A stretch of 64,000 nucleotides of DNA, from positions 1 through 64,000 of the forward strand of contig NZ_FNCA01000003.1 in NCBI RefSeq assembly GCF_900100715.1, read 5' to 3'. How positions within the stretch are numbered: position 1 is the first letter of the stretch; each line of letters begins with the position of its first letter. This stretch comes from Methanolobus vulcani (lineage in GTDB: Archaea; Halobacteriota; Methanosarcinia; Methanosarcinales; Methanosarcinaceae). Below the pieces are notes generated by a model, which made no database searches, was not told the origin of the DNA, and saw nothing but the letters and a program-made list of their open reading frames with translations. The position numbers and the translations under genes were made by a program. Of the stretch, positions 40,929 to 47,226 are shown piece after piece.

Positions 40929-41792
40929 GTGGAAATCAAAAAAGCTGTGATACCTGTTGCAGGAATGGGCACAAGATTCCTGCCTGCTACAAAATCCATG
41001 CCAAAAGAGATGCTACCTATAATTGACATACCAGTGATCCATTACGTTGTAGAAGAAGCAATAGCATCCGGAATTGACGACATTATATTCATCACAGGTA
41101 GAAGTAAACGTTCTATCGAAGATTATTTTGACGACTCACCCGAACTTGAGAACCACCTTCGCCAGAAAAATAATGAGAAGCTCCTGAAAGTCGTACAGGA
41201 TATATCTTCTATGGTAGATATACACTATATCCGCCAGAAAGAACCCAAGGGACTTGGAGATGCAATCCTAACTGCCAAGAAACACATAAATGAAGAACCA
41301 TTTGCTGTTCTCCTTGGTGACGACATAATAGTAAATAAAAAACCATGTACAAAACAGCTTATTGATAATTTCATGAAATATGGCCGTTCGACTATTGCAG
41401 TGGAAGAGGTCCCTATGGAAAAAACCGGAAGTTACGGAATTATCAAGGGACAGCCACTGGACGATTCACTCTACATTCTAGAAGATATAATAGAGAAGCC
41501 ATCTCCACAGGAAGCACCTTCAAACATTGGTGCAATCGGAAGATACGTATTCACACCTGAAATACTGGATTGCATAAAACAGACCGACAGAGGAGTAGGC
41601 AATGAGATCCAGCTAACCGATGGGATACGTCTTCTAAATGAAGAACAAAAAGTCTATGCTTACAAGTTCACGGGTAAAAGATATGACACCGGTGACAAAG
41701 TAGAATACGTAAAAGCAGTGATTGACTTTGCCCTGAATAAAGAAGATATGAGAGAACAAATAAAAGAGCACATCACAGGTATCAACCTGTGA
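40929..41792 (+). CDS. galU: UTP-glucose-1-phosphate uridylyltransferase
   Basis: 287 residues. It makes UDP-glucose from UTP and glucose 1-phosphate, feeding surface polysaccharide and glycan synthesis. The nucleotide-binding signature VIPVAGMGTRFLPATKSMPK followed by EMLPIIDIPVIHYVVEEA is at the N terminus. PFAVLLGDDII carries the metal-binding Asp near residue 138, and EKPSPQEAPSNIGAIGRYV is near 190. The start is a GTG with AAGGAG 6 bases upstream. It is monocistronic: its own TATA box in front and a terminator overlapping its stop. Confidence 0.95.
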   Translation: MEIKKAVIPVAGMGTRFLPATKSMPKEMLPIIDIPVIHYVVEEAIASGIDDIIFITGRSKRSIEDYFDDSPELENHLRQKNNEKLLKVVQDISSMVDIHYIRQKEPKGLGDAILTAKKHINEEPFAVLLGDDIIVNKKPCTKQLIDNFMKYGRSTIAVEEVPMEKTGSYGIIKGQPLDDSLYILEDIIEKPSPQEAPSNIGAIGRYVFTPEILDCIKQTDRGVGNEIQLTDGIRLLNEEQKVYAYKFTGKRYDTGDKVEYVKAVIDFALNKEDMREQIKEHITGINL

Positions 41793-41800
41793 CCTTTTTT
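41773..41800 (+). terminator. Terminator overlapping the galU stop
   Basis: TCACAGGT-ATCA-ACCTGTGA (41773-41792), a perfect 8-bp stem whose 3' arm contains the stop codon, then CC and TTTTTT. Confidence 0.75.
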
Positions 41801-41885: not shown

Positions 41886-42131
41886 TCATTGTGAACTTCG
41901 TTTAACAACTTTTCTCACAGTCCTTCCCCTGAAATTCACACCACCTACAAGAAGAACGCCAGGTCTGCGTTTGATAAGTTCAGAATAATCACCATCGAAT
42001 GTGGCAATTATAGTCTTATTTGCAATAACGTCTACTCGACCACCTATACTTACAAGGGCTTTTAGTATCCCTTCTATCTGAGAAGGAGTTGCATTGTCTG
42101 CAACCCTTACAAGATGTGTTTCAACTGGCAT
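41886..42131 (-). CDS. Small protein resembling a protease propeptide/inhibitor domain
   Basis: 81 residues from the ATG at 42131, 4 bases after the PASTA gene stop. The order of elements is strand-helix-strand-strand-helix-strand: THLVRVADNATPSQIEG, ILKALVSIGGRVDVI, KTIIATFDGDYSELIKRRPG, VLLVGGVNFRG. The 'GG-x-V ... ATF ... L ... PGV-xxV' pattern resembles inhibitor I9 propeptide domains of subtilases, here free-standing and without an export signal (inference, low confidence). A very basic tail (RTVRKVVKRSS) follows. It is the last gene of the four-gene operon. A longer frame to 42203 overlaps the PASTA gene and is not preferred. Confidence 0.55.
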   Translation of the reverse strand: MPVETHLVRVADNATPSQIEGILKALVSIGGRVDVIANKTIIATFDGDYSELIKRRPGVLLVGGVNFRGRTVRKVVKRSSQ

Positions 42132-42135
42132 CCTA

Positions 42136-43206
42136 CTACTTCCGTAAAACGGATCTCCTTGTAGAACTAATCCTGGTGGATATATCAGACGTTGTTTTAT
42201 CAACGGACCTCGAAATTATCGGATTTACAGTTGTCTTTCCTGAAACCGCAGCAAACTCAATCTTTGAACTTGCAACAACGAGATCTATAGCAGAACCAAT
42301 ATCCGTATAGCTACCTGCCTCAACAGATTGACCTATGATTGTGCCTGCCTTCATAGAATTTATTTCTTCAGTGACATTACCTACAGAGAGACCAATATCT
42401 GCCAGTGATTTCTTAGCAGCTGCAAGAGTATTACCAGTCAGGTCAGGAATCTCTACAGAAGTGATCTTTGAGATCACAAGATCTACGGCATCACCTGGTT
42501 TTGCAACGGAACTGCCGGACGGGATCTGTGAAAGTACCGTACCCTGTGCAAGCTCACTGTCTTTTTCGATAATCTCACCCTGTACAAAACCTGCTTCTTT
42601 AATGACAGAAAGTGCACTTTCAAGTTCAAGTCCCACAACACCAGGCACATCTTCAAAACTGGCAAGTTCCGGAGCCTTTGATGATGAAGTGATAGTGAAT
42701 TCAACCTCACTCAAATTACTTGCAGGAATGACATCATCAGCTTTTGGTAATTGGAAACGAAGATCATTGCCATCCATGGCGATATTTGTCTTAAGTTTAA
42801 TGTTCATGGAACTAATGCTATAGTTTACCCTTGAGGAACTTCCTTTAAGAGAGGAATCCATACTCTGAAGTGAATCACTGAATGCCTTTACCAGATTCGT
42901 GGATGAAAGCTCTGATCTGGTGCGGGATAATTGTTCCAGCTTCTTCTCGATTTCCAGCTTCTCGTTGATAATGTCCTTCACACGGCTATCAAGTATATTA
43001 TACTCCTGTTTTAAAGCCAGATTCTCTTTTTGGAGCTTTTCAAGGGCATCTGTTTTTGATATAAGCTCTTTGTTGATAGTATCGACTTCAGATTCAATTG
43101 TAGCAATACTCCTTTCAGTTAGAAGATAGCTTTTTCTTTTAGATGCAGCAGTAGTTGCTTTGTTCAGACTTTCAATATTCTTCCTGAGATCAGTAATATC
43201 GACCAT
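42136..43206 (-). CDS. Coiled-coil protein with two PASTA repeats, no export signal
   Basis: 356 residues. Residues ~35-100 form a long coiled coil (TINKELISKTDALEKLQKEN and EYNILDSRVKDIINEKLEI). Residues ~105-175 are a separate beta-rich segment (SSRVNYSISSMNIKLKTNIA). Two PASTA-like repeats follow, ~186-247 (VPGVVGLELESALSVIKEAG) and ~252-313 (IPDLTGNTLAAAKKSLADIG), and a Ser/Thr/Arg-rich tail ends the protein. PASTA repeats are normally extracellular parts of bacterial Ser/Thr kinases and PBPs that bind cell-wall fragments; here there is no kinase, signal or membrane span. Third gene of the operon, 12 bases after its neighbour. Confidence 0.75.
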   Translation of the reverse strand: MVDITDLRKNIESLNKATTAASKRKSYLLTERSIATIESEVDTINKELISKTDALEKLQKENLALKQEYNILDSRVKDIINEKLEIEKKLEQLSRTRSELSSTNLVKAFSDSLQSMDSSLKGSSSRVNYSISSMNIKLKTNIAMDGNDLRFQLPKADDVIPASNLSEVEFTITSSSKAPELASFEDVPGVVGLELESALSVIKEAGFVQGEIIEKDSELAQGTVLSQIPSGSSVAKPGDAVDLVISKITSVEIPDLTGNTLAAAKKSLADIGLSVGNVTEEINSMKAGTIIGQSVEAGSYTDIGSAIDLVVASSKIEFAAVSGKTTVNPIISRSVDKTTSDISTRISSTRRSVLRK

Positions 43207-43218
43207 TCCACTCCCCCT

Positions 43219-43626
43219 TTAGTCTTCTGTTACACGATAGGATGGTGGTACGGATACGATCTTGGCCTTCAGGACACTTGAGCCTTCGACATCATAGGAA
43301 TTGAGTGACTTGTAAGATGCATTCAAAGGTGCTGCATTAAGAATGCGTTTGTATCCACGAACACGACCCTTGGAATCTTTTTCTTCCTCATATGACATGG
43401 AAAGGGTCATTTTAAGTTCAATATCCACTTCCGGAATGTGATACCATGTAGCTTCCAGGTTGTAATCCTTGAGTACTTCATCACTTGAAAGTTCAATTTG
43501 AGTATCAATGGAATTACGATCAAGTGCTCTCTGGGTCTGGGCAATCGACTTACCCATTTCACCAAGGATCGTTGAAAGTGGACTGACAAGGACCTCTTCG
43601 ATATTTTCACTACTAATGGATGGCAA
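43219..43626 (-). CDS. DUF2589-like protein, short paralog
   Basis: 135 residues, cytoplasmic. The N-terminal helix SPLSTILGEMGKSIAQTQRA then LDRNSI matches PFGDMIKEMAFAIAEGQTAL then DMNSI of the upstream gene product. Further shared blocks are VDIELKMTLSM (VIEVKMTISM in the paralog) and the ending NASYKS...GSSVLKAKIVSVPP. The layout (helix with Q-A-L, then a proline-aromatic strand EATWYHIPEVDIELKM) resembles DUF2589 proteins, of unknown function (inference from memory of the family). 72 bases after the upstream paralog and 12 before the PASTA gene. Confidence 0.6.
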   Translation of the reverse strand: MPSISSENIEEVLVSPLSTILGEMGKSIAQTQRALDRNSIDTQIELSSDEVLKDYNLEATWYHIPEVDIELKMTLSMSYEEEKDSKGRVRGYKRILNAAPLNASYKSLNSYDVEGSSVLKAKIVSVPPSYRVTED

Positions 43627-43698
43627 TACAATACCTCCTGATTATTTTGAAAAAAGATTACCAATGCAGGAATTCTGCATTGATATCAAATATCCACC

Positions 43699-44313
43699 TT
43701 ATTCTGAAGATGTGCTCTCTTTTACCCTTACGGTAGGAACAGCTCTTTCAGGTGCAGGCACTGGCTTTAAAGTGGTCCTCAGAAGGCTTGTACCTTCTTC
43801 GCTGAAGGTGTACTTTGACTTGTATGTTGCATCATAAGTAGATGTGTATGCAACATTTGTAGTGTTCTCAAAACTTGTCTTGGCTTTACCAAAGAGAAGA
43901 CCTGCAAGTCCGCCTGAATTATAGCTTCCCTTGATCTTGGACTCATTGGTAAATTTGAACTCTCTACCGTATTTCCTTTCTGTAGAATACTCCTTCTTCA
44001 TTGAAATTGTCATTTTGACCTCAATGACAGATTCAGTAAACTCATAGAAACGGGGCTCAAGACCGTATGTTAATAAGGACATTGGTTTGTCGTTGGTAAC
44101 AACATTACTTGCAGTAACGTTACCGTCCTCATCTACAGTTTCTTCTATGTATAAAATTACACTTCCAGCCTCTAGTTCTGTCTCTGCAAGAGCCTGCGCA
44201 ACATTGATAGAGTTCATATCAAGTGCTGTTTGACCCTCGGCAATGGCGAATGCCATTTCTTTAATCATGTCCCCGAATGGAACATCTAATAGTTTTTGAC
44301 CAACTGATACCAT
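43699..44313 (-). CDS. DUF2589-like protein, long paralog; first gene of operon
   Basis: 204 residues with no signal peptide or membrane span. It has the helix DVPFGDMIKEMAFAIAEGQT, a beta-rich middle (FYEFTESVIEVKMTISMKKE), a Gly/Ser loop (SYNSGGLAGLLFGKAK) and a late block (ATYKSKYTFSEEGTSLLRT) shared with the 43219-43626 product. Compared with that paralog it carries extra inserts near residues 45-75 and 125-150. The start ATG at 44313 has GGAGGG 7 bases upstream, and a TATA box lies about 45 bases upstream. Function unknown. Confidence 0.6.
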   Translation of the reverse strand: MVSVGQKLLDVPFGDMIKEMAFAIAEGQTALDMNSINVAQALAETELEAGSVILYIEETVDEDGNVTASNVVTNDKPMSLLTYGLEPRFYEFTESVIEVKMTISMKKEYSTERKYGREFKFTNESKIKGSYNSGGLAGLLFGKAKTSFENTTNVAYTSTYDATYKSKYTFSEEGTSLLRTTLKPVPAPERAVPTVRVKESTSSE

Positions 44314-44356
44314 AGTTTACCCTCCAAAATTTATGGTGCAATATAATATAGGACAA

Positions 44357-44368
44357 TATAATTTAAAG
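44357..44368 (-). promoter_or_regulatory. TATA box of the PASTA/DUF2589-like operon
   Basis: CTTTAAATTATA on the minus strand, 44-55 bases before the first ATG at 44313. It suggests all four genes start from here. Confidence 0.5.
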
Positions 44369-44575
44369 ACTTTGCTAAAAATAACACAGTAAATATAAAA
44401 AAGATATCTGAGTATGCCTGCACACATCGAAATAAATAATACGACACTAAAAATAAAAACACTGTAAATAATAAGTACCAAGACCCATGCTGAAATGATA
44501 TAAAAGAATATATTCTATCAAAAAAAGAATCAAAAATGATATTATGGCATGAATATGCACAAAATAATAATTAAA

Positions 44576-44611
44576 TTAAAAAAATTGATGAAAAGGATGA
44601 TTGAATCATCC
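44576..44611 (-). terminator. Terminator overlapping the iorB stop
   Basis: GGATGAT-TGA-ATCATCC (44595-44611) includes the iorB stop codon and is followed on the minus strand by TTTTCATCAATTTTTTT. Confidence 0.7.
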
Positions 44612-45202
44612 CTGAGTAACATATCTACCCATCTCAAAAGCCTTTACGTTGATGGCAATAGTTTTCTGTGGAACAAGTTCCCTCACACATTCCACAAGAG
44701 TATCAACAGAAACCGGCAGATAATTTGAGACTGCGCCCACCATGACAACGTTCATGGACTGTGGATGACCAGCCTCTTTTGCAAGCTCGGTTGCATTGAA
44801 GGCTTTTACTTTATGAGATTCTTCCAGCTTTGCAATAATCGCATCAACATCAGGATAAGTACAGAGTCCTGAGGTCACAGTTACCGGGAGAATCGGGTCT
44901 GTGTTTACTATAATAATACCATCATCGGAAAGGAACTCAAGATACCGAAGTGCCTCACTTGGTTCAAGTGCAAGTAGTACATCAGCACCTTTCATCGGGA
45001 TCATGGAACCAAGTTCACAGTCAAGCCTGATATGATTGACAACTGAACCTCCACGCTGTGCCATTCCATGTGTCTCTGCTGCACGCACTGACATGTTTTC
45101 CTTAACGGCGGCCTTGCCGATTATATCAGATGCAAGTATAGTACCCTGTCCACCTACACCGGCGATGACAAGATCGAATTTTGATATTCCTTCTGCACTC
45201 AT
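44606..45202 (-). CDS. iorB: Indolepyruvate:ferredoxin oxidoreductase, beta subunit
   Basis: 198 residues, the gamma-type domain of the 2-oxoacid oxidoreductase family. LVIAGVGGQGTILASDIIGK near the N terminus, SVRAAETHGMAQRGGSVVNH near 35-54 and a long Rossmann-like core. With IorA it oxidatively decarboxylates aryl pyruvates (indolepyruvate, phenylpyruvate) to aryl-acetyl-CoA, reducing ferredoxin; in methanogens it can also work in reverse to make aromatic amino acids from arylacetates. Its ATG overlaps the iorA stop by four bases. Confidence 0.94.
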   Translation of the reverse strand: MSAEGISKFDLVIAGVGGQGTILASDIIGKAAVKENMSVRAAETHGMAQRGGSVVNHIRLDCELGSMIPMKGADVLLALEPSEALRYLEFLSDDGIIIVNTDPILPVTVTSGLCTYPDVDAIIAKLEESHKVKAFNATELAKEAGHPQSMNVVMVGAVSNYLPVSVDTLVECVRELVPQKTIAINVKAFEMGRYVTQG

Positions 45203-47028
45203 TTCTTCACCTCCGTAATGGCATCAAACTTACACAAGGCTGCACATACTCCACACCCAGTGCACATCGCATTTATGGATGCTTTCTTGGTTGTTGTGTC
45301 AAACTCAATTGCAGGACAACCAAGATTAACACAGAGTTTGCATCCGACACACTTTTCGGCATCGATTGAAAATGGCTTCCTGCGAATACCGGAACGCTTT
45401 GCATCAATGACACAGAACTGCCTTGTGATAACAACTGATGTTCCCTTGTATTCTTTTGCCCTTTTGAAGACCTCTTCTGCCTTTTCAAGATCGTATGGAT
45501 CAACTGTTTCAACAAATCCTGCACCCATGCCCTTACATAATTCCTCAAGGGAAACTTCAATGGTTGGCTCACCTGTTGCAAGCTTACCCATTCCAGGGTT
45601 TGGCTGGTGACCGGTCATTGCAGTGATGCGGTTATCTACTATAGTAACTGTGATGTCCGCTTTATTATAGATAGCATTGAGAAGACCATTCATTCCAGTG
45701 TGGAAGAATGTAGAATCACCAATTGAGCAGCATATAGGTTTTTTCTCTCCTGCCTGATACATTCCGCTTGCCACGGTTATACTTCCACCCATACAGAGTG
45801 TTGTATCAACTGTGCCGCTCTGAATTCCCAGTGTGTAACATCCAATGTCACTTGGAAAGATCGCATCCTTGCCGTAGACCTTTTTCATGACATGGAAACT
45901 TGCCCTGTGAGAGCATCCAGGACACATGACAGGAGGACGCATTGGCAGGTCTATCCTGCACCTGTCGTAATCGAAATCCTCTGCAACTTCTGCAGGAACA
46001 TCCGGTCTTTCAAGTTCAAGAACCTCTGCAAGAACGTCTGCACAGATATCAGTGTTCAGTTCATATATCCTTGGCACCGGACCTGGCATCTTGCCGACTA
46101 TCTCTACAGTTGAACCGGTCTGCTGTGCAATAATCCTAACCTGTTCCTCAACTATTGGCTCCATTTCCTCGAAGATGATTATCTTATCTGTGTTCTCCAT
46201 GAGGGTGCGGATCTTATTCTCCGGGACAGGATAGGTTCCGATCTTGAGGAATGATGCGTTGATTCCCTGTTGCATTACGGCTTCCTTTGCATAAACAGAA
46301 GCAATGCCTGATGCTATGACTCCGACCTTTGCGCTGTCAACGAGTTCAAGAGAGTTCCAGGGTGAATTCTCCAGTTCTTCCTGCATGGTTTTCTGTATCT
46401 CAAGAAGGTGAGGATGTTGTATCCTTGCATTCTTTGGAACCATGACCCAGCGCTCCAGCTCCTTTACGAACTCTGCTGTAGGTCTGGTTTCTTCCACCGG
46501 TCCGAGCTCAATATCGGATTTTCCGTGGGAGATACGGGTTGTTGGCCTGAAAATCACAGGCATCTGAACCTTGTTCGAGAATGCAAATGCGTAGGGAATC
46601 ATGTCCTTGGCTTCCTGTGGTGTGGAAGGATCAAGACATGGTATGAGTGAGAATTGTGAATATCTGCGGGTGTCCTGCTCGTTCTGTGATGAATGGCATG
46701 ATGGGTCGTCTGCTACTATTATTATCATGCTGCCTTTGACACCTGTGTAAGCAAGTGTGAGTAAGGGATCTGCTGCTACATTCAACCCGACGTGTTTCAT
46801 TGTAACTACTGAACGCACGCCAGCCATTGCAGCACCGGCTGCTACTTCAAGGGCAACTTTCTCATTGACCGACCACTCTACGTAAAAGTCTCTTTCCTTC
46901 ATTCCTGCCAGTGTACCGATGATCTCAGAGGATGGTGTTCCCGGATAACCGGATATGACCTGTCCGCCTCCTTCTACGATACCGCGTGCAATTGCAACGT
47001 TTCCCAGCATGTACTCGCGTGTGCTCAT
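45199..47028 (-). CDS. iorA: Indolepyruvate:ferredoxin oxidoreductase, alpha subunit
   Basis: 609 residues. The N-terminal pyrimidine-binding half has ISGYPGTPSSEIIGTLAGM; the TPP half has CPGCSHRASFHVMKKVYGKD and GDSTFFHTGMNGLLNAIYN. Two 4Fe-4S motifs close the protein: CVGCKLCVNLGCP and CTGCGVCAALC. The ATG at 47028 has GGAGAT 5 bases upstream and begins MSTREYMLGNVAIARG; an in-frame start at 47049 adds seven residues without a site. It forms an operon with iorB, ended by a hairpin. Confidence 0.95.
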   Translation of the reverse strand: MSTREYMLGNVAIARGIVEGGGQVISGYPGTPSSEIIGTLAGMKERDFYVEWSVNEKVALEVAAGAAMAGVRSVVTMKHVGLNVAADPLLTLAYTGVKGSMIIIVADDPSCHSSQNEQDTRRYSQFSLIPCLDPSTPQEAKDMIPYAFAFSNKVQMPVIFRPTTRISHGKSDIELGPVEETRPTAEFVKELERWVMVPKNARIQHPHLLEIQKTMQEELENSPWNSLELVDSAKVGVIASGIASVYAKEAVMQQGINASFLKIGTYPVPENKIRTLMENTDKIIIFEEMEPIVEEQVRIIAQQTGSTVEIVGKMPGPVPRIYELNTDICADVLAEVLELERPDVPAEVAEDFDYDRCRIDLPMRPPVMCPGCSHRASFHVMKKVYGKDAIFPSDIGCYTLGIQSGTVDTTLCMGGSITVASGMYQAGEKKPICCSIGDSTFFHTGMNGLLNAIYNKADITVTIVDNRITAMTGHQPNPGMGKLATGEPTIEVSLEELCKGMGAGFVETVDPYDLEKAEEVFKRAKEYKGTSVVITRQFCVIDAKRSGIRRKPFSIDAEKCVGCKLCVNLGCPAIEFDTTTKKASINAMCTGCGVCAALCKFDAITEVKK

Positions 47029-47226
47029 TTTAATCTCCTGCCAAGTCATACAAAATGATTATTGATAAAGATATCTGGACGGATGTTGTGTGTTAACACA
47101 TGTCACTGCATGATGATTTACCAATAATTGAACACGAGAGATCCAAAAGTCAACAGCTTCCTGTAAAGGTTTATAAGCTTACATTGTAGAATATAAATTA
47201 TAGTTCTCCACGGGAAGACAAAATCC

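Follow-up and report, generated by a model that had tools for sequence, protein, structure and literature searches.

Four adjacent minus-strand genes between galU and iorBA in a 64,000-nucleotide stretch of Methanolobus vulcani DNA (the window) make up one unit that, judging from comparisons among related genomes, appears to be accessory and to come and go as a block. Two of the proteins, P1 and P2, are paralogs allied to the DUF2589 superfamily, the third, P3, joins a coiled coil and a conserved domain to PASTA domains, and the fourth, P4, is small. The reading that we prefer, held at slightly below even confidence, is that P1, P2 and P3 would form a cytosolic hetero-oligomer with a conserved core and exchangeable PASTA or helix-hairpin-helix (HhH) arms, with P4 acting as a helper.

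The operon and its transcription signals

The open reading frames place the four genes as an earlier note on this DNA had described them, with intergenic gaps of 72, 12 and 4 bases, between the convergent galU (40929–41792) and iorBA (44606–47049). The distance from iorB to galU in the window is 2.8 kb, and its close named relatives are Methanolobus. The features are as follows.

43699–44313, minus strand: P1 (gene 1), 204 aa, ATG start, DUF2589-superfamily protein
43219–43626, minus strand: P2 (gene 2), 135 aa, TTG start, shorter paralog of P1
42136–43206, minus strand: P3 (gene 3), 356 aa, N-terminal coiled coil, conserved middle domain and two PASTA domains
42676–42924, minus strand: P3 middle domain, residues 95–177, shared by all relatives read, whether or not they carry PASTA
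42271–42657, minus strand: the two P3 PASTA domains, about residues 184–312 (Pfam)
41886–42131, minus strand: P4 (gene 4), 81 aa, ATG start, modeled as beta-alpha-beta-beta-alpha-beta, with a conserved basic tail
44355–44380, minus strand: BRE/TATA-like promoter footprint upstream of P1, from an alignment of 12 upstream regions
43659–43685, minus strand: hairpin and T-run in the P1–P2 gap, a possible partial terminator or processing site, from an alignment
41772–41793, minus strand: terminator-like hairpin 3′ of P4, overlapping the 3′ end of galU and readable in both directions

The TTG start of P2 has AGGAGG immediately upstream. The four open stretches run to 360, 204, 140 and 109 codons, whereas the maxima in 500 Markov shuffles average 84, 70, 63 and 58. 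Between the window and three Methanolobus relatives, dN/dS is 0.035–0.19 for each of the four genes. We take the genes to be real because every one of them falls in this range, which indicates that purifying selection acts on all four. The absence of export signals from all four proteins, another point of the earlier note, is borne out by hydropathy: no transmembrane segment or signal peptide is likely in P1–P4, and the best 19-residue Kyte–Doolittle mean is 1.38.

A single conserved BRE/TATA-like block, AGCAAAGTCTTTAAATTATAT (about 44376–44355), lies 5′ of P1 in 12 aligned loci. It corresponds to the shared TATA box claimed earlier and is compatible with one BRE/TATA promoter for the whole operon. 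A second element had been overlooked: in the 72-base gap between P1 and P2, the inverted repeat ATCAATGCAG...CTGCATTGRT has a T-run after it. This hairpin is kept across Methanolobus-type loci with variable loops. In the alignment, 97.3% of cells are paired, compared with 15–55% in slid controls, and two pairs have changed on both sides; with a stem that varies so little, the shuffle control is weak. The hairpin occurs only once in the genome, which rules out a genome-wide repeat or a shared operator. Its natural reading is a partial terminator or processing site that would raise P1 over P2–P4.

Inheritance and distribution

Intact P1 is present in 28 of 101 sampled Methanosarcinaceae genomes, counting one (G077) in which the gene is cut by a contig end. 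The same 28 carry P4, and P2 and P3 lie between P1 and P4 at every locus that could be read. Besides these, two loci have decayed, one with a broken P1 (G078) and one with P4 only (G086); G032 and G007 retain only remnants of P1 and P2. The earlier note had held that its proposal would be refuted if the four genes did not co-occur in other genomes, and they do co-occur.

In most Methanolobus and Methanosarcina-like genomes the operon lies by iorAB or the ribosomal L3 operon. It is also intact at unrelated sites, in G006 (L040), G003 (L049) and G267 (L159) and at L037. Seven Methanolobus genomes are without it, and there iorB almost abuts galU or only a short interval separates iorB from L3 (galU is complete in six of the seven and partial in one, and the gaps are about 50–120 bp where measured). 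The seven empty sites, the unrelated locations and the joint presence of the genes together point to an accessory cassette that is gained or lost as a block. A chance neighbourhood of unrelated hypothetical genes might be suspected, since three of the four proteins are without known function. This explanation has almost no chance of being right, as it is refuted by co-inheritance at different sites, by absence as a block and by a gene order kept across families.

Additional copies and relatives occur near some of these loci. G062 has a degenerate second copy of P1 and P2 about 35 kb from its intact operon (L045:9566–9828). Just upstream of P1 at another locus is a second P3-like protein of 1324 aa with many PASTA-like repeats (L041:10750–14724), and L042 encodes a large protein related to it.

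When 295 genomes of the phylum were searched with the P1 profile, relatives turned up in 25 of them, spanning at least eight families, and the order P1-P2-P3(-P4) is maintained in further archaeal families. L159 and L160 have P1-P2-P3-P4, and L161 and L162 have P4-P1-P2-P3. P1-P2-P3 with a single PASTA in P3 is found at L163, whereas P3 at L165 follows P1-P2 and has no PASTA. At L164 the order is P1-P1′-P2-P3, with PASTA and HhH in P3 and a P4-like gene in addition; L166 is similar. Candidate homologs of P4 outside Methanosarcinaceae are very diverged, at 10–33% identity. In genus g10 the set is rearranged. One protein there fuses DUF4332, a P2-like domain and PASTA, in that order, and the neighbours of the fusion gene are two P1-like genes, a separate coiled-coil/P3-domain gene lacking PASTA, and TPR genes. 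At L051:7232–14103, L052:830–6512 and L053:7097–12894, rearranged clusters combine DUF4332-P2-PASTA fusions with two P1-like genes, TPR proteins and a protein that is disordered and rich in repeats. In a genome of genus g7 that is without the operon, a distant P1-like protein of 308 aa is encoded close to one of 243 aa whose C-terminus is of the DUF4332/Cdd1 type (L056:7896–10235).

A comparable set is found in a bacterium. On a plasmid of Sphaerotilus sulfidivorans, a betaproteobacterium (NZ_CP035710.1, L134:11643–14422), five adjacent genes annotated as hypothetical share the layout of the operon and are read as P4-like, P1, P1′, a small protein resembling the P3 domain, and a coiled coil with a P3-like domain; only the P1 match is significant, and the other four were assigned by layout and by eye. 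The plasmid P1 is 60% identical to the archaeal P1 of L164, a likeness that is likely to reflect gene transfer between domains.

Protein families and candidate systems

The profiles of P1 and P2 align with an hhalign probability of 99.0% (E 2.5e-18), giving solid sequence support for the earlier claim that they are paralogs. Their description as DUF2589-like holds in profile comparisons but escapes the Pfam model. The Pfam DUF2589 model (PF11655) matches neither P1, P2 nor 16 diverse P1 relatives at its gathering score, and a narrow, family-level P1 alignment reaches only 51% against DUF2589. A diverse P1 profile, however, aligns with archaeal DUF2589 at 93.7% (E 1.8e-7) and stays in register for almost its full length, and the P1 proteins of L163 and L165 are intermediates that match both profiles. 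Direct comparisons of P2 with DUF2589 profiles are not significant; P2 is tied to DUF2589 through P1. Placing P1 in the DUF2589 superfamily is thus right at that level, although it falls below the Pfam criterion. An AlphaFold model of P1 built from eight sequences failed (mean pLDDT 32.5) and was not used.

Tandem DUF2589 paralogs are accompanied by a third, partner gene, a feature that the operon shares. In such triplets, the C-terminal domain of the third gene (family f6) matches the 80-residue domain of P3 (67%, E 5.2e-5), from which it follows that two paralogs with a third partner are a recurrent combination. Examples of DUF2589 pairs or triplets include the AF0414–AF0417 cluster of A. 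fulgidus, which is up-regulated on lactate (PMC3949148) and in which, as in the operon, paralogous superfamily genes lie side by side. The operon differs from these clusters in that P1 and P2 are below Pfam detection, its third gene has a long coiled coil and PASTA, and there is an extra small fourth gene. DUF2589 clusters are nevertheless the closest known kind and themselves have no assigned function, which leaves the operon far from any understood system.

An alignment of 21 copies of P3 gives an architecture of a coiled coil, the 80-residue conserved domain and PASTA. The earlier description of a coiled-coil/PASTA protein is secure: two stretches match PASTA (PF03793) at 8.8e-23 and 80.5 bits, against a cut-off of 23.2, and the coiled coil is at the N terminus. 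PASTA stretches number from zero to four per P3 relative (Pfam), and relatives add DUF4332 or HhH. Comparison of the P3 domain with P1 and P2 reveals no significant kinship. P3 has two clear PASTA domains like those of PASTA proteins generally but, unlike PASTA kinases and penicillin-binding proteins, is cytosolic and has no kinase, transpeptidase/penicillin-binding or transmembrane part.

These properties bear on an envelope or stress device, in which an assembly beneath the membrane would bind an envelope precursor or polymer through its PASTA arms. Bacterial PASTA domains bind cell-wall material, and galU, a sugar-nucleotide gene, adjoins the operon in Methanolobus. However, Methanosarcinaceae methanogens are not known to have peptidoglycan; the four proteins are without a transmembrane segment or signal, and the galU neighbourhood is lost where the operon has moved. 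We regard such a device as quite unlikely, even allowing for the bacterial DUF2589 pairs near N-acetylmuramidase genes (see below) and for the response of A. fulgidus DUF2589 genes to growth substrate (PMC3949148).

Modeling of P4 gave a βαββαβ fold with a mean pLDDT of 73.5. Its best Foldseek neighbours in the PDB are mostly subtilisin and PCSK9 propeptides, with TM scores (by query) of about 0.49–0.62 and E values of 0.017 and worse. The model shares its order of elements with the subtilisin propeptide/peptidase inhibitor I9-like fold. In contrast to I9/subtilisin systems, P4 has no I9 match in Pfam (the only hit is DUF5615 at 0.026, below the cut-off), the operon has no subtilase, and ferredoxin-like folds are common anyway; no PDB sequence matches P4 below E 0.1. 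The earlier label of an inhibitor-like protein therefore stands as a resemblance of fold in the model, with no sequence match behind it and a structural E value that is at best 0.017 and not significant. A propeptide-like or inhibitor-like role is a suggestion only.

The earlier note had also stated that the genes match no known system and form an unrecognised functional unit, and both points agree with our searches. Nothing above chance was found for P1, P2 or P4 in Pfam, NCBIfam, PHROGs or PADLOC, and solved structures gave no convincing sequence match to P1, P4 or archaeal DUF2589; no curated defence, phage or solved-structure family accounts for the operon. PADLOC 2.0 defence models gave only PASTA-driven and coiled-coil matches. 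Among these, PD-T4-6 was rejected as an identity for P3, PASTA alone being responsible. The Trypco2 domain (PF19631) of ternary conflict systems is a small helix-plus-strands domain with a layout similar to that of the P3 domain (PMC7159879). After archaeal Trypco2 proteins had been collected and the profiles compared, the identification was rejected at a non-significant 26% probability. The Trypco2 systems differ in addition in their partners (PMC7159879), as peptidase, MoxR, vWA and NTPase genes are all missing from around the operon.

In a conflict or defence system, P1, P2 and P3 would be adaptors whose PASTA/HhH arms detect an invader or a damaged partner, and P4 would be an inhibitor that can be released. 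We consider this unlikely. The operon is accessory, patchy and repeatedly decayed, its relatives are found on plasmids, in phage contigs and with an integrase, the arm domains are shuffled, and the P3 domain has its weak likeness in layout to the Trypco2 adaptor domain. However, the neighbourhoods read have no nuclease, NTPase, peptidase or toxin gene, the defence library is silent except for PASTA and the coiled coil, the Trypco2 match is not significant, and P1 and P2 are under strong purifying selection.

DUF2589 pairs also occur in mobile elements. In IMG/VR viral contigs (L198–L202), pairs of about 150 and 202 aa are encoded directly beside terminase or portal genes, and L197 has a pair with a third gene and an integrase. 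An unverified phage clone (L196:144–4015) and a deltaproteobacterial plasmid (L192:5140–9422) each have a pair near a PF11860 N-acetylmuramidase gene. It is clear from these records that mobile elements carry the superfamily, but this does not make the methanogen operon a phage module. A domesticated structural module from a phage or mobile element, such as a virion-associated DUF2589 pair, would account for the pairs beside terminase and portal genes, but we judge it very unlikely. Searches of phage records and viral contigs at the sensitivity used returned no relative of P1, on which ground we rejected the idea that the operon came from a phage; PHROGs is silent, none of the operon copies has a virion gene nearby, and gene order is kept across families. 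On the same evidence, the phage-tail-like function offered earlier is not supported.

A proposed cytosolic assembly

Of the functions that the earlier note had offered, an assembly or scaffold is the best fit, and it is one that we infer. The data beneath it are the unit and its co-inheritance, the paralogy of P1 and P2, the profile-level kinship with DUF2589, the domain content of P3 and the P1–P2 hairpin. The assembly model is favoured because inheritance is all-or-none, with intact copies at unrelated sites and clean empty sites, the paralogs lie side by side, gene order is kept, a counterpart exists on the Sphaerotilus plasmid, two paralogs recur with a third partner in DUF2589 triplets, a P2-like domain is fused with DUF4332 and PASTA in one lineage, and the hairpin is present. 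Two points weigh against it: the P3 domain has no significant kinship with P1 and P2, and the candidate P4 homologs outside Methanosarcinaceae are strongly diverged.

According to the assembly model, P1 and P2 would co-assemble in the cytoplasm into a hetero-oligomer. P3 would then join them, its coiled coil multimerising and its 80-residue domain docking on the P1/P2 core. The hairpin would provide an excess of P1 as the main subunit, and P4 may aid assembly or cap the complex. The C-terminal PASTA domains of P3, joined by DUF4332 or HhH in relatives, would serve as exchangeable target-binding arms. We read a constant core and a variable arm because dN/dS is lower for P1 (about 0.04–0.05) than for P3 (0.14–0.16) and because the count of PASTA stretches differs so widely among P3 relatives. 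It is possible, though doubtful, that a new multi-protein machine is represented here, a closed or filamentous cytosolic assembly of paralogous subunits of the DUF2589 fold with exchangeable PASTA/HhH recognition arms and a propeptide-like assembly factor, distributed among archaea, bacteria and phages.

DUF2589 genes are found in archaea, bacteria, plasmids and phages and are hardly mentioned in the literature searched. The operon gives them a defined gene set, in which P3 is a conserved partner whose binding domains can be recognised and to which a small fourth gene is added. Relatives of the operon are present in genera with cultured strains, and closely related genomes with and without it exist; such paired genomes open the function of the whole superfamily to test.
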